Source: Stygiobacter sp. (lineage in GTDB: Bacteria; Pseudomonadota; Alphaproteobacteria; Rhodospirillales; Magnetospirillaceae). Taken from it: a stretch of DNA of 64,000 bases. The stretch lies in assembly GCA_006218045.1 (NCBI GenBank), contig VBWB01000008.1:62001-126000 (forward strand), read 5' to 3'. The notes beneath the pieces were generated by a model. It worked only from the letters and a program-made list of their open reading frames with translations, searched no databases and was not told the origin of the DNA. Shown piece by piece: positions 3,589-13,698 of the stretch (position 1 is the stretch's first letter; each line of letters starts with the position of its first letter). The position numbers were made by a program, and so were the translations under genes.

Positions 3589-5271
3589 TCAGGCGGCGCG
3601 CACCGAATGCAGGAAGTTCTGCACTTCGCTCCGCAGTTTCTCGCTTTGACTGCCCAGCAATTCGGCGGCGGACAGCAGGCCTTCCGCCGCTTGCGCGGTT
3701 TCGCCGGCGGCTTCGCGCACGGTGCCGATATTGCGGGACACGCTGTTGGTGCCCTCGGACGCCAATTGCACGTTGCGGCTGATTTCCTGGGTGGCGGCGT
3801 TCTGTTCCTCGACGGCGGCGGCGATGGCCGAGGCGATCTGGTTGATATTGGTGATGGTGCCGCCCATGCCTTCGATGGACGCCACCGTCGCCCGTGTTTC
3901 CGCCTGGATGCCGTTGATCTGCGCGCCGATTTCCTCGGTTGCCTTGGCGGTCTGATTGGCCAGCGCCTTGACCTCGTTGGCGACGACGGCGAAACCTTTG
4001 CCGGCATCGCCGGCGCGCGCCGCCTCGATGGTGGCGTTCAGGGCCAACAGATTGGTCTGGCTGGCGATGTCGTTGATCAGCTTGACCACCTCGCCGATGC
4101 GCGCCGCCGCCTGGGCCAGGCCTTGCACCATCTCGTTGGCGCGTCCGGCCTCGGTCACCGCCGCCTCGCTGATATCGGCGGAGCGGGTGACCTGCTGGCC
4201 GATCTCGCTGATCGCCGCCGACAATTCCTCGCTGGCGGCGGCCACCGTCTGCACGTTGGCCGAGGCCTCTTCCGCCGCGCTGACCACATGGGCGGCGCTT
4301 TCGCTGCCGGTGGAGGCGGTTTCGCGCATGGTCTGGGCGATGGTGCGCAGATGGCCGGCGGCAGTGACCACGGCACCGACGATCTCGCCCACATTGGCCT
4401 CGAAGTCGTCGGCGACGCGGGCCATGGCGGCGGTCCGCTCGGCTTCCGCCCGTTTCGCCGCCGCTTCCTGTTCGGCCTCCAGCCGGACCTTGTCGCGGGC
4501 ATTGTCGCGGAAGACCAGCAGGGCCTTGGCCATGGCGCCGATTTCGTCGCCGCGGTCATCGCCGACCACCGCGCCGTCGACGTCGCCCGCCGCCAGACCG
4601 TTCATGCGTGCGGTCATACCGCGCAGCGGCGACACCACCGAGCGAATGGCCAGCCAAGCCATGCCCAGGGTGAGGATGATCACCACCAGGGCGACCAGCC
4701 CCAATTCCAGGACCAAGCCCCGGGTCATGGCGTCGATGTCGTCCACATAGACGCCCGAACCGACCATGAAGTTCCAGCCCGGGACCATTTCGGCGTAGGA
4801 GATCTTGGGCACCGGCTTGTCCGTTCCGGTACGGGGCCAGACGTAATGGACATAACCGCCGCCGGCCTTGGCCTGGGTGATCAGGTCGCGCACGATGTAG
4901 ACGCCGTTGGCATCCTTTAATTCGGTCAGACTTTTCCCGACCAGATCGGCTTTCGGATGGACATAGGTGGTCGCCTTGTCGTCGAAGGCGAAAATATATT
5001 CGCTGCCGTCATAGCGCATGCCATCCAGGGCCATGAAGGCTTGCTTGCGCGCGTCCTCCTCGCTCAGGCGTCCGGCATCCACTTCCTTGCGGTAGCGCTT
5101 CATGACGCCGATTGCGGTCTCGACGATGCTTTTGACCTTGGCGTGATGTTCTTCCATCACCGATGCGGACAGCAATTTCAGGCTGTACCCGGTCAGCATG
5201 ACAAGGGCGACAATCAAAAGAAGTACAGGCGCCCATACGCGTGTGCTGATGGGAGTGCTTCGTATATTCAT
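3589..5271 (-). CDS. Methyl-accepting chemotaxis protein with single Cache domain
   Basis: A 560-residue chemoreceptor. A first transmembrane helix lies at about 13-34. A periplasmic sCache_2-type sensor follows at about 35-185, with the features [24 protein letters not shown] and [17 protein letters not shown], then a second helix at about 187-210, HAMP at 210-262 and the MCP signalling domain to the end. The signalling tip is [20 protein letters not shown]. sCache_2 receptors usually bind small carboxylates or other metabolites; the ligand is not deducible here. It ends FLHSVRAA, like the first MCP. The sequence before the start is unusually AT-rich. Confidence 0.95.
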
Positions 5272-5360
5272 GGCAGTCTCGTCTCATGGCCGGAAAGATA
5301 AAGGATGTGCGTTATTACTGATGGCTATGATTAACGCTGCGATAAATTAACCATAAAGTT

Positions 5361-5380
5361 ATATATCGGAAAAGATATAT
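5361..5380. promoter_or_regulatory. AT-rich palindrome between divergent genes
   Basis: ATATATC (5361-5367) and GATATAT (5374-5380) form a 7-bp palindrome with a 6-base spacer in the AT-rich gap between the divergent MCP and J-domain genes. This may be an operator or promoter element. No regulator can be named. Confidence 0.3.
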
Positions 5381-5518
5381 TTTTGAGTAAGCTTGTTTAC
5401 TGCAATTAATGGCATTTATGCGCAAAACCAAACACGCAATAGGCTGTTAGGTGTGGATTTGACATGCCGGTTTTATCCTCGCCTTGCCTCGTCCGCCGCC
5501 GGCCATCATATTGTCGTG

Positions 5519-6097
5519 ATGAAAGCGAATTCGTCGAAACGGTCCTGGTCCACCTGGCATCCCGATCCGGCCCCCAAGCCGGCGGCGCGGGCTTGCGACC
5601 ATCCCGGCTGTAACGGGGTGGGGGAGTTCCGCGCGCCGCGCTCGCGCGATCAACTGAACGAATATTATTGGTTCTGCCTCGACCACGTGCGCGCCTACAA
5701 CGCGTCGTGGGATTTCTACAAGGGCATGAGTCAGGACCAGATCGAGGACGAAATCCGCCGCTCCACCACCTGGCAGCGCCAGACCTGGCCGTTGGGGGCC
5801 AAGACCGGCAACAAGCACTTCACCTTTTCCATGCACGATCCCTTGGGCGTGTTCGAGGACGAGGCGGAGGAGATGAAAAAGGCCCGCACCCGCCCGCCCT
5901 CACCGGAAGAAGCGGCCCTGCGCGTGCTGGGGTTGACGGAAATGCCATCGGTCGCCACCCTGAAAGCGTGCTACAAGAAACTGGTCAAACAGCATCATCC
6001 CGATGCCAATGGCGGCGACAAGGACGCAGAGGAAACCTTTAAAGTGATCTCTCAGGCCTACAAGACCTTGCTTGACAGCCTGACAGCAGAAGATTGA
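5519..6097 (+). CDS. J-domain (DnaJ-like) protein with Cys-containing N-terminus
   Basis: A 192-residue protein with a C-terminal J-domain (about residues 130-190) that contains the HPD tripeptide in [13 protein letters not shown]; this loop stimulates the DnaK ATPase. The N-terminal half carries ACDHPGC and, about 35 residues later, FCLDH, which could form a small metal site. The ATG at 5519 is chosen because conserved-looking sequence begins there; an in-frame start further upstream adds 42 residues of poor quality. The gene directly precedes cobS-cobT, an arrangement seen in other alphaproteobacteria. It may therefore help fold or remodel the AAA+ cobaltochelatase, though that is inference. 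Confidence 0.88.
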
Positions 6098-6135
6098 CCG
6101 CCGGACCGCCGGCCAAGAGGGAAAACCACATCATC

Positions 6136-7137
6136 ATGACCGCGAACATTGCCAGCCCGCTTGCTTCGGATCACCCGCTCGCCATGCCCGACATCACGCT
6201 GGACGTCCGCGACGTCTTCGGCCTCGACGTGGATCTGAGCGTCCCCGCCTTCAGCGTCGGCTCGGAACATGTTCCGGACATCGATCCCAGCTATCGCTTC
6301 GACCGCGACACCACGCTCGCCATCCTGGCCGGCTTCGCCTTCAACCGCCGTGTCATGGTCCAGGGCTATCACGGCACCGGCAAGTCCACTCATATCGAGC
6401 AGGTGGCGGCGCGCCTCAACTGGCCGTGCATCCGCGTCAACCTGGACAGCCATGTCAGCCGCATCGATCTGATCGGCAAGGACGCCATCGTGCTGAAGGA
6501 CGGCAAGCAGATCACCGAATTCCGCGAAGGCATCCTGCCGTGGGCGTTGCAGCACCCCTGTGCCCTGGTGTTCGACGAATACGATGCCGGTCGTCCCGAC
6601 GTCATGTTCGTCATCCAGCGCGTGCTCGAGGTGGAAGGCAAGCTGACGCTTCTGGACCAGAACCGGGTGATCCGTCCGCACAAGGCCTTCCGCCTGTTCT
6701 CCACCGCCAACACCGTGGGCCTGGGTGACACCACCGGTCTGTATCACGGCACCCAGCAGATCAACCAGGGCCAGATGGACCGCTGGAACATCGTCGCCAC
6801 CCTCAATTACCTCGAGCACGATGCCGAATGCGCCATCATCGCCGCCAAGTTGCCGGGCTATGACACCGACGACGGTCGGGCGGTGATCGGTCGCATGGTG
6901 TCGCTGGCCGATCTGTCGCGCCAGGGCTTCATGAACGGCGATATCTCGACGGTGATGAGCCCGCGCACGGTGATCACCTGGGCCGAGAACGCCACCATTT
7001 TCGGCGACGTCGCCTTCGCCTTCCGCCTCACTTTCCTCAACAAGTGCGACGAGGTCGAGCGCCCGATCATCGCTGAATATTATCAGCGCTGCTTCGGCGT
7101 CGAACTGCCCGAAACCCCGGCGCGGGTCGCCCTGTAA
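6136..7137 (+). CDS. cobS: Aerobic cobaltochelatase subunit CobS
   Basis: A 333-residue AAA+ ATPase (MoxR-like clade) that, with CobT and CobN, inserts Co2+ into hydrogenobyrinic acid a,c-diamide in the oxygen-dependent cobalamin pathway. The Walker A motif GYHGTGKST is at 77-85 and the Walker B motif [10 protein letters not shown] at about 146-155. The length matches the CobS family (about 330). The ATG at 6136 is preferred over a TTG at 6094 that overlaps the previous stop, because the conserved family sequence begins after this ATG. CobT follows after 13 bases. CobN is not in the window. Confidence 0.95.
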
Positions 7138-7150
7138 AGGAGTCCGGCCG

Positions 7151-9061
7151 GTGCCAGAGCGCAATTCGGCGCATCCGTCGTCGTCGCCGCCGCCGCGCGA
7201 CGAAAGCCCCACCGACACCATGAAGCGGGCCACCGCCATGGCCCTGCGCGCCATCGCCGGGCGGGCTGATCTGGATGTGGGCTTCGTCACCGGTGCCGCC
7301 ACCGTGCGCGGGGTGGAAATCAAGCTGCCCAGCCCGCAAAAGAACCTGACGGCGGGCGATCTGGTGCGTCTGCGCGGCACCGCCGACGCGGTGGCGCTCC
7401 GGTTCCGCTATCACAACGACGCGGTGCACGCCAAGCGCATGCCGCCCGACCCGCAGGCCCGCAAGGTCTACGAGGCGGTGGAGCAGGCCCGCATCGAGGC
7501 CCTGGGCGCCCGGCGCATGGCCGGGGTGGCCGACAACATCGCCGGCGTGCTGGAACAGCGCTGCCGGGCCGAGGGCATCGACCGCATCACCAAGCGCGAC
7601 GACATGCCGCTGTCGGAAGCCATGCGCTTCCTCGCCCGCGAACACTTCACCGGGTTTGAACCGCCGGCGGCGGCGGAACGCGCCGTCAATCTGTGGCGGC
7701 CCTATATCGAGGAAAAGATCGGACACAGCCTGGACGGGCTGCGCGACCTGATCGCCGACGAAGAGGCTTTCGCCGGTAGTCTCAAGGATCTGCTGGTCCA
7801 GTTGGACATTTTCGACGAATCCGAACTGGAATCGGAAGAAAAGCAGTCGGACGAGGAAGGTCAAGAGGCGCGCGAAGGCCAGTCGGAAGGGCAGAAGGAC
7901 AAGGACGGCGACAGCCAGAGCCAGGGCCAGCAGGGCGAAGGCGAACCCAAGGCGGCGCCCAGCGCCGCCGAGGGCTCGGGCGAGCAGGACGGCTTGGAAA
8001 GCGCCTCGGAAGAGGTGCTGATGACCGGCGCCGGCACCGAGGAAGCGGGCGGGCCGTCACGTCAGCGCCAGACCTTCACCCCCCAGGCCGGGGCCAATGG
8101 TGAAAAGCCCTATCACCCCTATACCACCAAGTACGATCAGGTGATCACGGCGGAAGAATTGTGCGAGCCCGAGGAAATGTCCCGGCTGCGCAATCAGCTC
8201 GACCAGCAGATGAGTCATCTGCAAGGCGTCGTCTCCAAGCTGGCCAACCGCCTGCAACGCAAGCTGATGGCGCAGCAGACGCGGTCATGGATCTTCGACC
8301 TGGAGGAAGGCATCCTCGATACCGGGCGTCTGGCCCGCATCGTCGCCAATCCCACCCATTCGCTGTCGTTCAAGCACGAGAAGGAAACCGATTTCCGCGA
8401 CACCGTGGTGACGCTGTTGATCGACAATTCCGGCTCCATGCGCGGGCGGCCCATTACCGTTGCCGCCCTGTCCGCCGAGATTCTGGCCCGCACGCTGGAA
8501 CGCTGCGCCGTCAAGGTCGAGGTTCTGGGCTTCACCACCAAGGCGTGGAAGGGCGGCCAAGCGCGCGAGCAATGGCAAGCCGACGGCAAGCCGCAACAGC
8601 CGGGCCGCCTCAATGATCTGCGCCACATCGTCTACAAGGCCGCCGATGCGCCGTGGCGCCGTGCCCGCAAGAATCTGGGGCTGATGCTGCGCGAAGGCGT
8701 GTTGAAGGAAAATATCGACGGCGAGGCGCTGTTATGGGCGCATGACCGTCTGATCGGGCGGAATGAGCAACGCCGCATCCTGATGGTGATTTCCGATGGT
8801 GCCCCGGTGGATGATTCGACCCTGTCGGTCAATTCCGGCAATTATCTGGAGCGGCATCTGCGCGACGTCATCGACTATATCGAGACCAAGTCGCCGGTGG
8901 AACTGATCGCCATCGGCATCGGCCACGACGTCACCCGCTATTACCGCCGCGCCGTCACCATCATGGATGCCGAGGAACTGGGCGGCGCCGTCATGCGCCA
9001 ACTCACCGCGCTTTTCGATGAAGAGGGTGTGACGGGCGCAATCAGGCCTGGACTCAGGTAA
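7151..9061 (+). CDS. cobT: Aerobic cobaltochelatase subunit CobT
   Basis: A 636-residue partner of CobS in the cobalt-insertion complex. The N-terminal helical domain is followed by a highly acidic, Glu/Gln/Ser-rich linker (about 215-300) and a C-terminal von Willebrand A domain. Its MIDAS motif [11 protein letters not shown] (DxSxS) lies near residues 420-432. The start is GTG at 7151 with AAGGAG eight bases upstream, overlapping the end of cobS. Size and domain order are standard for the family. The cluster ends here; the following hairpin chiefly serves the opposing gene. Confidence 0.95.
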
Positions 9062-9101
9062 GCGCAGAATGTACATGCTTTGCTAAACAATCAGTATGAC
9101 C

Positions 9102-9139
9102 AAAAAAACTCCAGCCCTGCCTTATCCTTAGGCGGGGCT
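9102..9139 (-). terminator. Intrinsic terminator of the cupin gene
   Basis: The stem 9113-9121 with 9131-9139 (nine pairs, one G-U, loop of nine) is followed on the minus strand by seven T (complement of 9102-9108). On the plus strand it could also weakly end the cobT transcript. Confidence 0.75.
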
Positions 9140-9144
9140 TTCTG

Positions 9145-9591
9145 TTATTCGGTCGGCGCCAGCGAGGGAATGCGGACGATGTCGGCCTCATAAACCTCCT
9201 GGCTGCGTGAATTACGCCCCCAGGTCAGAAAGGTGGTGTCCTTGAGGAACACCATGGTGTGGTCGAGCATCGGTCCGGTAAAGAACATTTCGCCCGTGCT
9301 GAAGACCGTGCGGCGCGGCGCCTCGGCGCTGCCGGTGGGGCGTTCGTAATAGGCGATCTCGCCGTCAAGCACATAACAATAGTGCCAGTCGCTACGGTGA
9401 TAATGGTTGGCCCGCTGGGTGCCCTGTTGGGAATGAATCAGCACGCAACTGTCGCTGCGCAGGTCGAGCAATGGCTGGATCGCGCCGCGCTCGTCGGTGA
9501 AGGCCGGCGGTAGAGTTACCGTCGGCTCCGTGGGCCAGGCGGCCCGCTCGCTGTCGTCGATGGGGCGGATGGCGGGGTGGGGGGCTTGCAT
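9145..9591 (-). CDS. Cupin-fold protein, RmlC/FdtA-like
   Basis: A 148-residue single-domain cupin. The core shows DERGAIQPLLDL, a metal- or substrate-binding ANHYHRSDWHYCYVLDGEI and a late His in MLDHTMVF. This pattern is typical of sugar 3,4-ketoisomerases and epimerase-like cupins in polysaccharide gene clusters. The ATG at 9591 is chosen; a TTG at 9660 would add 23 residues with no family resemblance. It lies next to galU and on the same chromosome arm as the glycan region after 42758, which fits a role in nucleotide-sugar or capsule metabolism. The reaction cannot be assigned. Confidence 0.7.
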   Translation of the reverse strand: MQAPHPAIRPIDDSERAAWPTEPTVTLPPAFTDERGAIQPLLDLRSDSCVLIHSQQGTQRANHYHRSDWHYCYVLDGEIAYYERPTGSAEAPRRTVFSTGEMFFTGPMLDHTMVFLKDTTFLTWGRNSRSQEVYEADIVRIPSLAPTE

Positions 9592-9755
9592 GGTGGGGCG
9601 GACTTTGTTCGGTTCAATCACGTCCGAGCAAATAGCGTAAGGCGTGCTCGGACGCAACAAGATTATGCGACTTTGTGTAATGATAGAAATGTCAGGCCCA
9701 TGGTTTGGCGTGGCCGAAACGTGTAAAATGGACGTGTTGGGATGAGGAGGCAGTC

Positions 9756-10064
9756 ATGCCCGTCTCCGCCGTCGTCGCGGCTGAAACCGTCTATCCGGTG
9801 ATGGTCAACGGCTATTTGTGCTACAGCGCCGCCGAAGTGGCAGCGGTGCGGCGGGGGCAGTCGCCCGAATCGGTCAAGCCCGGTGCCGGTAACAGCAGCA
9901 GCCAAACCGAGGACGCCGCCACCATCCAGGCCCAAGCCCAGGCGCAAGCCAAGGCTTTGGCCGAGGCGCAGGCGCGCATCGCCCAACTGACCCAGTCGGC
10001 GGATGCCTTGGCGCAAAGTCTGGAAAAAGGCGGGCGCGGGACCGTCGTTGACATCTACACCTGA
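9756..10064 (+). CDS. Small uncharacterised protein, Ala/Gln-rich helix
   Basis: A 102-residue protein without a recognised domain. The start ATG at 9756 has an excellent AGGAGG (9745-9750), so the gene looks translated. Residues 1-45 contain PVMVNGYLCYSAAEVAAVRRG. Residues 55-95 form a low-complexity AQAQAQAKALAEAQARIAQL helix likely to be a coiled coil. There is no signal peptide or membrane segment. It is transcribed toward galU, with the galU terminator just after its stop. Function unknown. Confidence 0.7.
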   Translation: MPVSAVVAAETVYPVMVNGYLCYSAAEVAAVRRGQSPESVKPGAGNSSSQTEDAATIQAQAQAQAKALAEAQARIAQLTQSADALAQSLEKGGRGTVVDIYT

Positions 10065-10096
10065 AAAAAAGCCCGCCGGAAGGTCATTCCGGCGGG
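10064..10096 (-). terminator. Intrinsic terminator of galU
   Basis: A perfect 10-bp stem (10072-10081 with 10087-10096, five-base loop) is followed on the minus strand by C and seven T, the complement of 10064-10071. This is a textbook terminator 29 bases past the galU stop. The T-run complement begins at the stop codon of the small facing gene. Confidence 0.9.
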
Positions 10097-10124
10097 TCCA
10101 GTGGCAGGAGACTCCGGGGCGGGG

Positions 10125-11000
10125 TCAGGCGACCCGGCGCCCGCTCATGGCCTGGATATGGGCCAGGGTGGCGGCAGCGGTATCGGGATGGGCCAGGGCC
10201 TGATCGATGATGGCCTGGACATAGCCAGCCTTGGTGCCGCAATCGTAGCGGGTGCCGACGAAACGGAAGCCGGACAGGCCGACCTGGGCGATGGAGGCGG
10301 CGATGGCGTCGGTCAGCTGGATTTCACCGCCCTGGCCCTTTTGCTTGCGATCCAGGTAGTCGAACACCGCCGGTTCCAGGATGTAGCGCCCGATCACCGA
10401 CAAGGTGGACGGGGCGTCTTCCGGCTTGGGCTTTTCCACCATGCCCCGCGCTCGGGCGACCTGACCGTTTTCCTCGATCACATCCAGGATGCCGTAACGG
10501 TTCACATGGTCCAGCGGCACGTTTTCCACCGCCACCAGATGACCGCGGGTCATTTCCCATTGCTTGACCATCTGGGCCAGGGCGCCGGGTTTACCCAAGA
10601 TCAGGTCGTCGGGCAGCAACACGGCGAAGGGATCGTTGCCGATCACCGGCTTGGCGCACCACACCGCATGGCCCAGGCCCAAAGGCGCCGGCTGACGGAT
10701 GGCGGTGATGGTCACCCCCTTGGGGCAGGTGGAGCGGGCGATATCCAGCAATTCCAGCTTGCCGCGTTCTTCCAGCTGACGCTCCAACTCGGGCGAGCGG
10801 TCGAAGTGGTCGACCAGCAATTCCTTGCCCTTGGCGGTGATCAGGACGATGTCGGTGATGCCGGCCTCGGCGGCTTCCTCCACCGCGTACTGGATCAGGG
10901 GCTTGTCCACCACCGGCAGCAGCTCCTTGGGCAGCACCTTGGTGGCGGGCAGAACACGGGTGCCCATACCGGCGACGGGAAGAACGGCCTTGCGGATCAT
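10125..11000 (-). CDS. galU: UTP-glucose-1-phosphate uridylyltransferase
   Basis: A 291-residue nucleotidyltransferase that makes UDP-glucose from UTP and glucose-1-phosphate. Diagnostic motifs are AVLPVAGMGTRVLPATKVLPKE near the N-terminus (nucleotide loop), VDKPLIQYAVEEA, VLLPDDLI and VEKPKPEDAPS. The ATG at 11000 is used because the family starts exactly with MIRKAVLP. UDP-glucose is the substrate of the dehydrogenase at 53061, so the two genes together can supply UDP-glucuronate for polysaccharides. It has its own terminator, so it is probably a separate transcript from the ATPase pair upstream. Confidence 0.96.
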   Translation of the reverse strand: MIRKAVLPVAGMGTRVLPATKVLPKELLPVVDKPLIQYAVEEAAEAGITDIVLITAKGKELLVDHFDRSPELERQLEERGKLELLDIARSTCPKGVTITAIRQPAPLGLGHAVWCAKPVIGNDPFAVLLPDDLILGKPGALAQMVKQWEMTRGHLVAVENVPLDHVNRYGILDVIEENGQVARARGMVEKPKPEDAPSTLSVIGRYILEPAVFDYLDRKQKGQGGEIQLTDAIAASIAQVGLSGFRFVGTRYDCGTKAGYVQAIIDQALAHPDTAAATLAHIQAMSGRRVA

Positions 11001-11096
11001 GATCAACTCACTTGGTTGAGTTATGCGATGACCGGAACAATGCCCGGACATGATGTCGCGACCATGACGCGATTGTGGCGAAGCGGGGGCGTGTGC

Positions 11097-11720
11097 CTAA
11101 GCCGGAAACCAAGAGGTCAGACGCGAAATGATCGATTCGAAAGTGGGGCATGCCTTCAGGGCCTTGACGCTGGCCTTCTTGCCGATTTCCTCGAAATCTC
11201 TCGGAGAAATTGAACGGCGTAACTTGTTGAGCATGACGTACTCAAATAATTCCTTGGGTTGGGATGATTTCAATTCAGAAACGGTAATCTTGAGTTTGGT
11301 CGCACGTTCTTCGATCCATTGATCCAACTGATTTGGATCAATGCCGCAATAGGCCGCCAGGGCATTTTCGCAATGCCAGAGCCATTGCTCCAATTCTGGA
11401 ACCAATATGGCGACGGTGTGGTTGCCACTCCAGGTGACGCGGTCCAATCTGTCTGAAATGTTGATGGCCACTTCTTCGGGAGATTGCCGTATTTCCCTGC
11501 CCGAACCATGGTGATCCCACATCATCAGTATCTTGTGGTGACGCCCCTTTTTCATGCCAGCCAGTTCGGGACCGTTTTGGACCATCCCCGAGTCACGGGA
11601 ATGGTGGCGGTCGATGTCAAAGGTGATATCTCTAATGCCGATAGCCTGGGGCCGATTGAGAATGGCACGCATGAATGCCTGCGCATCGGCGTCGGCGGTG
11701 TAGACAAGCAAATCCTTCAT
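11097..11720 (-). CDS. Toprim-like small partner of the adjacent ATPase
   Basis: A 207-residue protein of unassigned family. Its motif pattern resembles stand-alone Toprim-like proteins paired with AAA ATPases: acidic D10/D12 in YTADADAQAF, WDHHGSGRE at 68-76 where a DxD-type metal motif is expected, and VPELEQWLW similar to the PE-E-W-L motif of such proteins. The start ATG at 11720 overlaps the ATPase stop as ATGA, indicating translational coupling. Base composition is low: 26 of 60 bases are G or C in 11281-11340. A role as nuclease or effector in an anti-phage pair is an inference, and the metal site is not canonical. Confidence 0.6.
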   Translation of the reverse strand: MKDLLVYTADADAQAFMRAILNRPQAIGIRDITFDIDRHHSRDSGMVQNGPELAGMKKGRHHKILMMWDHHGSGREIRQSPEEVAINISDRLDRVTWSGNHTVAILVPELEQWLWHCENALAAYCGIDPNQLDQWIEERATKLKITVSELKSSQPKELFEYVMLNKLRRSISPRDFEEIGKKASVKALKACPTFESIISRLTSWFPA

Positions 11721-12940
11721 TCTAAAATTCCGGCGGCGAATACGGCCCCGAGATCGGGCAGGCCATTCCACGTCTGGAGCATGGCATGGCTTGAGCCTGC
11801 CGTGACATGCACTCCGTCGTTTTCTCGGCTGAAACACAAAAGAGGCTTGATGCCGCATTGCTGAACTACCAGAGGCGAATGCGTCGCCAAAAGCATCTGC
11901 GCTCCCGGAATGGAAGAGAGCGAGCGCAAGATGATCTCTAAGGCCTTAGGGTGAACGCCGTTCTCGGGCTCTTCCACCATGTACAATGCCCCGTCAGGAG
12001 GGAGGAATGCCGGGATGGTCAATGCCATCATTCGCAGGGTGCCATCGCTGAGCACCCAACTGGGAGCTTCCAAGCCATTGTCGTACCGCAGCAAAAGGTA
12101 TTCCGCGTTGTCTGCTTGCCGTCGCGCCCAGCCGACATTGATCAGATCGGGCAGCGCGTAGCGCAGATGTTCCGCCCAGCGTGCAACGGGGCTTTCCGGT
12201 TCTGCCCAATACGGTCCCTGACCTCCGTTTACGGCTAACAGTCTGCCGACGACGCGGGCGAGATTCGTGCCGTCCAAATCCAAGTCGGCTGGTCTGGTTG
12301 CCGGGCAAGGAAGACGCATGGCAGGGCTGTTGAGTTGAATATAACGAATGCCACGCATCAGGAACCGTCTGACCGCATTGGCCGTCGGGTAGCGACGTTC
12401 GTCCGGGGGGGTGAGGCCTAAAGTCAGCTTGTCCAGGCCGAAATTGAACGAATCCTGATAGCGACCGTCCTCTCTTTGATAAAAATCGGTGAAGTTAGCC
12501 GTTTTGCCGAGCAGGCGCTTTGGCTTGACGTTTGGGCTGAACGATAGCTGGTTTCCGGATTTCAGCCACGACTTTGAGTACAGTTTCAGTGATTCGTCGC
12601 TAACGCAAACCCCAGCCTGAACATCTTGTTTGACTGCCAACCGGTAGAGCAGCAGGCTTTCCGACAGTTCTTGCCGCTGGTCCGACAAATCCAGCCACAG
12701 TTCAATTTCGATGATCCCGCCTTGGCGCATCCAGGTCAGATCGTTGAAATCGGCGATGTGGCGAGACTCGACGGCGTCAGCGGGCCCCTGGGTTAGGCAG
12801 TCACGGACAAAATCGATCGCATCGAGAAATGTCGTCTTGCCGATACCGTTGGGGCCAACCAGGACATGGAACGGTCCCAAGGGGAGGTTGCAAATCTCTT
12901 TGATGGCCTTGAAATTCCGAATAGTCAGGCCGACGATCAT
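11717..12940 (-). CDS. OLD/RecF-like AAA ATPase of a two-gene putative defence system
   Basis: A 407-residue ABC-type AAA ATPase (AAA_15/AAA_21 style) with Walker A GPNGIGKTT (29-37), a signature-like VLSDGTLRMM, Walker B ALYMVEEPENGVHP and switch His in LLATHSPLVV near the C-terminus. It has no C-terminal Toprim domain of its own; the downstream gene seems to supply one. Such split ATPase/Toprim-like pairs are common in defence islands. The start ATG at 12940 fits the family beginning MIVGLTIRNFKAI. Composition is about half GC (29/60 in 12541-12600, 31/60 in 12481-12540), lower than the neighbouring metabolic genes, suggesting transfer. It sits between rpe and galU. Confidence 0.85.
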   Translation of the reverse strand: MIVGLTIRNFKAIKEICNLPLGPFHVLVGPNGIGKTTFLDAIDFVRDCLTQGPADAVESRHIADFNDLTWMRQGGIIEIELWLDLSDQRQELSESLLLYRLAVKQDVQAGVCVSDESLKLYSKSWLKSGNQLSFSPNVKPKRLLGKTANFTDFYQREDGRYQDSFNFGLDKLTLGLTPPDERRYPTANAVRRFLMRGIRYIQLNSPAMRLPCPATRPADLDLDGTNLARVVGRLLAVNGGQGPYWAEPESPVARWAEHLRYALPDLINVGWARRQADNAEYLLLRYDNGLEAPSWVLSDGTLRMMALTIPAFLPPDGALYMVEEPENGVHPKALEIILRSLSSIPGAQMLLATHSPLVVQQCGIKPLLCFSRENDGVHVTAGSSHAMLQTWNGLPDLGAVFAAGILE

Positions 12941-13015
12941 CGGGTGCCTCCGCTGCTGCCCGGGCAAAATACAGGAAATGGCGGAGCAAATAAATGGGCG
13001 GTGGAAATTGAGCCA

Positions 13016-13666
13016 TCAGCCCTTGGAATTCTTGATCGCCGCGATATTGGCGGCGTAATCCTTGGTCTTGAACACGGCGGACCCGGCGACCAGACAGGTG
13101 GCGCCGGCTTCGATCACCTTCCAGGCATTGTCGGCGGTCACACCGCCGTCGACCTGGATGTCGATGGGCCGGTCACCGATCATGCGCTTGATGCGGGCGA
13201 TCTTGTCCAACTGGCTGGTGATGAAGCTTTGACCGCCGAAGCCGGGATTGACGCTCATCACCAGCACCATGTCGATGCTGTCGAGCACGTATTCGATGAC
13301 GTTTTCCGGTGTATGCGGGTTAAGCGAGACGCCGGCTTTCTTGCCTAAGGCGCGGATCGCCTGGACCGAGCGGTGCAGATGCTTGTCGGCCTCGGCGTGG
13401 ACGGTGATCAAATCGGCGCCGGCCTTGGCGTAATCTTCCAAAGAGGGCTGGGCCGGGTCGATCATCAGATGGACGTCGAAGACCTTCTTGGTCCATGGGC
13501 GGATGGCCTTGATCACCGGCGGGCCGAAGGTCAGGTTGGGGACGAAATGTCCGTCCATGACGTCGATGTGAATCCAGTCGCAGCCGGCTTCGTCGATGGC
13601 TTTGACCTCGGCACCCAATTGGGCGAAATCGGCGGACAGGATGGACGGCGCGATCAGAACGGACAT
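13016..13666 (-). CDS. rpe: Ribulose-phosphate 3-epimerase
   Basis: A 216-residue TIM-barrel enzyme interconverting ribulose-5-phosphate and xylulose-5-phosphate for the Calvin and pentose phosphate cycles. Motifs include [30 protein letters not shown] with metal-binding His and Asp, [19 protein letters not shown] and QVDGGV with the catalytic Asp. The start ATG at 13666 has GGGAGG seven bases upstream. It is the last gene of the Calvin-cycle operon, separated from fba by a 134-base gap that contains a palindromic repeat pair. Confidence 0.96.
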
Positions 13667-13698
13667 GGTTTTCCTCCCGTTGTTCAAGGCAAACTCCA

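Follow-up and report, generated by a model that had tools for sequence, protein, structure and literature searches.

A lone, BREX-3-linked relative of the MAD3–MAD4 gene pair between rpe and galU

Background

MADS is listed among the systems in which an ABC ATPase is associated with a Toprim protein (PMC12409363). Elsewhere it is counted among systems that restrict by unknown mechanisms (PMC12904381). In PARIS, AriA sequesters AriB until a phage protein binds and then releases it; AriB cuts tRNA, and its activity is lost when E26 is changed (PMC12409363). OLD and GajA are fusions that include the Toprim domain (PMC10568477). In a BREX survey, backup suicidal effectors are reported to combine OLD-ABC ATPases with TOPRIM or other nucleases, and type-3 BREX carries BrxHII (PMC12839542). 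Our literature search found no paper on a lone MAD3–MAD4 pair, although PMC12839542 may include it, and none on DUF4276.

We analyzed a two-gene locus in the window (the whole stretch of DNA examined, 64,000 nucleotides) and compared it with these systems. In our view it is a MAD3–MAD4 relative that stands alone and is linked to BREX-3.

The gene pair and its setting

The pair occupies positions 12940–11097 of the window on the minus strand, between rpe and galU (Table 1), within the co-directional run tkt–fba–rpe–[pair]–galU. We take these flanking genes to be tkt, fba, rpe and galU, all of which encode common proteins; rpe, fba and galU were re-found in relatives. The neighbors are housekeeping genes, and the pair does not lie in a defence island. 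An earlier note made from the letters alone (the sequence-only reading) had described two open reading frames with a 4-base ATGA overlap and had quoted several motifs, and all of these were confirmed at the positions in Table 1. Of the 16 further pairs that were aligned, 11 or more have the same overlap, likewise with ATG.

Table 1. Positions of the gene pair, its junctions and its flanking features in the window
Feature	Coordinates	Strand	Basis
OLD-type ABC ATPase, MAD3-like, 407 aa (P0001)	11717..12940	minus	Pfam AAA_21 1.8e-26; NF047739 376 bits; predicted structure pLDDT 91.3
MAD4-like partner, divergent DUF4276/Toprim-like, 207 aa (P0002)	11097..11720	minus	NF047734 164 bits; pLDDT 93.4
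ATGA stop/start overlap coupling ATPase and partner genes	11717..11720	minus	ORF coordinates
rpe-side junction of insert, 75 bp	12941..13015	minus	without sigma-70-like site
galU-side junction of insert, 45 bp	11052..11096	minus	
rpe, host gene, upstream flank	13016..13672	minus	name from sequence knowledge
galU, host gene, downstream flank	10125..11051	minus	name from sequence knowledge
Terminator-like site 3' of galU	10096-10072	minus, as galU	

The low GC content claimed by that reading also held. The pair has a GC of 0.549 versus 0.652 for the window and is its lowest point, as none of 1,244 same-length stretches (step 50, whole window) was as low. GC3 was 0.62–0.66 in the pair versus 0.82–0.86 in the six neighboring genes that were measured. 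In 12 comparisons within the pair family, pN was 0.07–0.31 and pS 0.73–0.86; these values were used instead of dN/dS, with synonymous sites saturated (dS in 11 of the 12 comparisons). The low pN despite saturated pS indicates purifying selection on the family.

A promoter scan of the 75 bp that separate rpe from the pair revealed no sigma-70-like site, and a terminator-like hairpin on the strand of the pair was found only after galU; both scans were weak and performed no better than on shuffled sequences. These results suggest that the pair is likely transcribed by read-through from the rpe run.

The ATPase

The product of the upstream gene carries a Walker A motif (GPNGIGKT, residues 29-36), the signature SDGTLR, a Walker B motif (VEEPENG) and an H-loop (THSP), the positions of which are invariant across 18 aligned ATPases. 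By these motifs and by its predicted fold, it belongs to the OLD-type ABC ATPase family. Its model matched solved structures of OLD, PtuA, GajA and Rad50, and the best matches included the OLD nuclease 6p74 and GajA. Against NCBIfam MAD3 (NF047739) its score was below the cut-off of 420 bits. Among PADLOC defence models, the best match was HEC-01A (1.2e-41), with weaker matches to AriA (1e-27) and mad3 (5e-24). Matches to the ATPase in three phage records were at 23–26% identity only.

The partner protein

The partner scored just above the cut-off (160 bits) of NCBIfam MAD4 (NF047734), and this model matched all 17 aligned partners at E<=0.001. Pfam gave no match at E<=1 (hmmscan), and the fit to PADLOC models was poor (HEC-01B 0.0018, mad4 0.0086). 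In the confident, single-chain AlphaFold2 model, an alternating alpha/beta domain is followed by a helical tail. Foldseek of the partner model against 350,542 PDB chains detected nothing at E<=0.001. Among viral models the second match was RloB-like and weak (TM 0.48, E 0.017), and the match to a phage DnaG Toprim was also weak (E 0.077).

Twelve residues were invariant in all 17 rows of the partner alignment (A9, D10, D43, G45, D69, W97, P108, E109, E111, W115, P155 and W204), the acidic ones being D10, D43, D69, E109 and E111. D10, D69 and E109/E111 sit at or just past strand ends in the model. The sequence-only reading had pointed to D10, D12 and D69 as a possible metal site; D10 and D69 are conserved in all 17 rows, whereas D12 is kept in 13 rows and absent in 4. 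A canonical Toprim protein with a D10/D12 site was rejected on this ground.

DUF4276 is a Toprim-like family, and a Toprim domain is defined by a catalytic Glu after strand 1 and a DxD motif after strand 3. We compared the partner with a DUF4276 profile of 11 proteins from relatives (11 of 17 places used; partial or stop-bearing L092, L093 and L099–L102 left out) using hhalign, and obtained a probability of 96.1% and a score of 64.0. With L065 and L069 added (13 proteins), these values rose to 97.7% and 84; the best of 60 column-shuffled controls reached 16.8 with 11 proteins and 17.6 with 13. The match covered the full length (181-182 columns). The 11 window-type partners alone gave 93–97%, and the other 6 alone 84–90% over 122-128 columns. 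Judged by this profile comparison, the partner is homologous to DUF4276 (Pfam PF14103) over its full length. In the alignment, the glutamate of VEGxTE (motif 1, replaced by TADAD in the partner) corresponds to T8 and the DxD to D69-H-H. The canonical Toprim Glu and DxD are kept neither in the 17 aligned rows nor in the DUF4276 profile alignment. Given the profile match and the shifted acidic residues, we take the partner to be DUF4276-like but divergent, its set of acidic residues being altered. Homology to RloB was rejected by profile comparison (0.2%, four sequences only, from 4 of 5 RloB places). Among species of the genus, DUF4276 proteins were found in 4 of 13 and RloB in 2 of 13; neither model matched the genome of the window.

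The evidence on the Toprim-like nature that had been proposed for the partner is mixed. The DUF4276 match, the weak RloB-like match (TM 0.48) and the listing of MADS among ABC ATPase–Toprim systems (PMC12409363) speak for it, and the missing canonical Glu and DxD and the lack of a PDB match at E<=0.001 speak against it. The sequence-only reading overlooked the match of the pair to the named MAD3 and MAD4 families and its BREX link.

Close relatives and BREX

One scan of GTDB genome contigs yielded five close relatives of the pair. The copy in Thiohalocapsa marina (L003), whose ATPase and partner are 79% and 60% identical to those in the window, is embedded in a BREX operon in the order brxC (end)–23S-IVP-like ORF–pglX–pair–brxH–pglZ–brxA. 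The pair is also ATGA-coupled there, and the partner and helicase genes share a 4-base overlap. PglZ of this locus scored as BREX-3 (927 bits, cut-off 250). PADLOC labeled the helicase BrxHI versus BrxHII expected of type 3, and we counted this against the BREX-linked reading. The ORF between brxC and pglX (1207-1593) belongs to the 23S rRNA intervening-sequence-protein family (Pfam 117 bits).

In Methyloversatilis (L005), an unbroken pair is flanked by a C-terminal fragment of pglX and an N-terminal fragment of brxH. On the Geoalkalibacter plasmid pGSUB1 (L115, 8873-10289), a remnant corresponding to pglX residues 877–917 (93%) accompanies an unbroken ATPase, 92% identical to the L003 ATPase, and a partner that extends up to residue 23. 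A second pglX match at this locus (124–161 at 50%) lies inside an annotated DNA methyltransferase and was not counted as BREX. Methylase genes come after the truncated partner on pGSUB1, where the ATPase persists without its partner.

Altogether, three of the seven window-type loci (L003, L005 and L115) are BREX-embedded or beside BREX fragments. No BREX fragment was found at E<=1e-3 at the other four (window, L002, L004 and L006), nor within 14 kb around the window pair; composition-shuffled BREX queries gave no match in the 13 loci searched. With four of seven loci free of such fragments, we infer, and do not observe, that the lone copies originated from BREX. PglZ was not found in the window's own genome by a search that detected only 2 of 14 controls. 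The L006 partner, from a metagenome assembly, is frame-broken. In Desulfobulbaceae (L004), a 246-aa ORF beside the pair (6688-7428) partially matched PADLOC mad2 (74 bits); perhaps it is a general methyltransferase rather than mad2.

MADS relatives and distribution

A more distant pair is part of a MADS operon at L054, in which mad2, mad3, mad5, mad6 and mad7 were recognized by PADLOC and MAD4 by NCBIfam. L055 and L056 were likened to L054 by gene order and size. Identity between the window pair and L054-L056 was 22-25% for the partner and 29-31% for the ATPase, and the profiles of the two partner groups matched with an E of 5e-28. Both the partner and the ATPase tree showed a 100/100 split that set the window-type rows apart from the group containing L054–L056. 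Several long branches come together in that group, and were flagged for the ATPase tree; it further includes L066–L068, plus L085 for the ATPase, all of unassigned setting. By both trees, the window pair is a lineage separate from the MAD3–MAD4 of MADS.

The partner alignment (17 rows) omitted the broken L002 and L006 partners, and the ATPase alignment (18 rows) omitted the L002 ATPase; in the trees L002 was represented by a single open piece per protein, namely residues 1–292 of the ATPase and the partner from residue 66 on. The MAD4 alignment also excluded the fragments L010/L070, L023/L064 and L024/L071, as well as L011/L069 and L025/L065, which are of DUF4276 type. L085 is in the ATPase tree only, and L086, L115 and L116 are in neither tree.

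None of the MADS neighbors seen at L054 (mad2, mad5, mad6 and mad7) lies beside the window pair, which is flanked by rpe and galU. A mad7 search of its own genome gave no match, with the controls also undetected. A MADS system in this genome was rejected, being unsupported by neighbors or trees. It should be noted that the NCBIfam MAD4 name (NF047734, 160 bits) over-reaches, as it admits the window protein (164 bits) outside any MADS locus, and that this name does not by itself point to a MADS system.

A further seven lone pairs (L057–L063) were located between other genes, and the stretches searched around them contained no BREX fragments. Five of them form one clade in the ATPase tree, and L057 and L059 branch earlier. 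In the class of these seven, a match was found in 10 of 48 genomes, two being fragments and two places being MADS-type by neighbors and tree; MAD3–MAD4-like pairs are rather common in this class. With a single-protein query, the class to which the window belongs gave 3 of 385 genomes, counting its own. The MAD4 model matched 5 of 61 nearer relatives, a figure that contains the own genome and two weak, partial matches, and 13 of 398 genomes across the phylum, partial matches again counted. In another class the figure was 3 of 369. Among L057-L063, three lone pairs adjoin what is presumably an rlmN-like gene. L062 (2808-3416) and L063 (10185-10676) have a second, partial ATPase-like stretch beside the pair, with 28-34% identity to MAD3-like ATPases.

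A scan of viral contigs on a single motif found no partner relatives. A plasmid search with the window partner as query gave nothing at E 1e-5; this query was too insensitive for the 23-residue remnant on pGSUB1 and for the MADS-type partner of L116, and both were found via the ATPase. L116 (Piscinibacter gummiphilus plasmid, 3941-13275) has an N-6 methylase, an AAA ATPase, a MAD4-like protein and a protein kinase in a row, and is a MADS-type locus.

Insertion site and transfer

With the MAD4 model, the pair was detected in 2 of 13 species of the genus, the genome of the window (G000) and G008 only. G008 presumably corresponds to L002 (Rhodospirillaceae bacterium UBA6219) and carries the pair at the same site, with a frameshift in the ATPase and an in-frame stop in the partner. 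G008 and L006 are metagenome assemblies, in which an isolated lesion might be an error in the sequence; two lesions are present in G008. These broken copies suggest that the pair is easily lost. On the stretches fetched, rpe and galU were adjacent in four genomes (G000, G008, G011 and G012); in the nine others galU was absent from the stretch, two of these being short contigs. The site is empty in G011 (about 50 bp) and is occupied in G012 by a 257-aa ORF with a GC of 0.51 (L043, 2321-3094), for which neither Pfam (E<=0.1) nor PADLOC (E<=0.01) gave a match. The rpe-galU junction may be a small insertion site.

Copies in four distant hosts showed 69–80% (ATPase) and 54–64% (partner) identity to the window pair, and the rpe of these hosts was only 51–55% identical to the window rpe. 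This is most simply explained by horizontal transfer. The sequence-only reading had proposed a transferred module and had made its defence interpretation depend on the pair not being vertically conserved at this locus. The excess of ATPase over rpe identity and the presence in only 2 of 13 species bear out both points.

Between G000 and G008, the pair was 78% (ATPase) and 64% (partner) identical and rpe 93%, a gap that raised the suspicion of independent insertions. Independent insertions in the two genomes were rejected, as the ATPase tree joins both copies (97/96; partner 82/75). One gain, followed by fast divergence and decay, is thus likelier than two insertions.

Possible function and rival explanations

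From kinship and neighbors, we infer that the pair has a defence function. This agrees in part with the defence-type module of the sequence-only reading, which is supported by the matches of the ATPase to defence models and by one relative in a BREX operon. Our preferred reading, which we put at about even likelihood, is a PARIS-like sensor ATPase with an abortive effector, forming a stand-alone transferred immune cassette, the orphan form of one that is embedded in type-3 BREX in a close relative. In its mode of action, the closest analogue studied so far is PARIS. As an oligomer, the ATPase would hold the partner inactive in a putative complex. In view of the BREX link, the signal of infection could plausibly be an anti-restriction protein or the state of DNA ends; it would change the ATPase, which would then free or activate the partner. 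The partner might cut nucleic acid by means of an acidic site of D10, D69 and E109/E111, and the infected cell would be stopped. The lone copies would have come out of BREX, and the pair may fit the backup-effector role reported there, with trigger, substrate and outcome all presumed.

It is also possible, and we propose this more tentatively, at less than even likelihood, that MAD3–MAD4 forms a portable immune unit, sufficient in itself, which type-3 BREX and MADS each captured on their own. MAD4 would then be an effector of MADS and a backup effector in BREX-3, with a rewired Toprim site of Asp10, Asp69 and Glu109/111, and the lone pairs here and at L057–L063 would be its free form. The pair is unbroken here, where no PglZ was found, and at L005 among BREX fragments, which argues for independent function. 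If the pair works alone, two genes rather than an entire operon would suffice to test the mechanism of MADS, and they would also show what BREX-3 gains by carrying them.

Four other explanations were considered. The pair could be a tethered DNA nuclease of the OLD/Gabija kind, in which the head of the ATPase would recognize the ends or structure of DNA and place the partner so that it directly nicks the DNA of phages or plasmids, with no release or host suicide. The best structure matches of the ATPase do include 6p74 (OLD nuclease) and GajA, and the larger contexts, BREX-3 and MADS, are DNA-modification systems. However, a short, coupled partner made as a chain of its own is closer to PARIS than to the fused OLD and GajA, and the catalytic motif of the partner departs from Toprim; we consider this account doubtful. 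We judge it unlikely that the pair needs BREX-3 or MADS for its signal and is here a stranded fragment, neutral or on its way out. Such a fate would be consistent with the three of seven window-type loci within or beside BREX, with PglZ not being found in the own genome (2 of 14 controls detected), and with the frameshift and in-frame stop in the sister-species copy and the frame-broken L006 partner (both metagenome-assembled). On the other hand, the window copy is unbroken, the family is under purifying selection, lone pairs recur at seven further loci (L057-L063) with no BREX fragments in the stretches searched, and the L005 pair is unbroken while the surrounding BREX is in pieces.

The coupled two-gene layout would also suit a toxin-antitoxin or addiction module, with a toxic partner and the ATPase as antidote, kept by post-segregational killing and not by immunity, and on pGSUB1 the ATPase is unbroken and the partner truncated, as would be expected if the toxin is lost first. 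Embedding in BREX-3 and MADS operons and a chromosomal location between core genes make this very improbable. Finally, a housekeeping pair of sugar or DNA metabolism within the tkt-fba-rpe-galU run would be co-directional with the rpe run and probably read through from it, as the pair is, but the patchy occurrence (2 of 13 species), the low GC, the other cargo in G012 and especially the empty site in G011, which strongly disfavors it, leave this explanation hardly credible.

Comparison with known systems

The pair resembles MAD3-MAD4 of MADS in having the same two families, order and coupling. However, mad neighbors are present at L054 and none beside the window pair, and the trees separate the two at 100/100. 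In type-3 BREX (L003) the pair is nested between pglX and the helicase gene, whereas the window pair is alone. With HEC-01, a PADLOC candidate composed of an AAA ATPase and a DUF4276 protein, it shares the best PADLOC match of its ATPase (HEC-01A); three DUF4276-type proteins that were tested scored as HEC-01B, but the window partner reached only E 0.0018.

Gabija GajA, OLD and the PtuA of Septu and retrons were fold matches to the window ATPase. OLD and GajA have a fused Toprim, whereas the window pair consists of separate chains; PtuA works with an HNH partner, according to structure titles, and the window partner is not HNH. The pair is like PARIS in combining an OLD-type ATPase, which matches AriA at 1e-27, with a separate Toprim-like partner. 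It differs in that the partner has no match named AriB at E<=1 in PADLOC (which may hold no AriB model), on which ground membership in PARIS was rejected, and in that AriB needs E26, whereas T8 of the window partner aligns with the corresponding Toprim residue in DUF4276.
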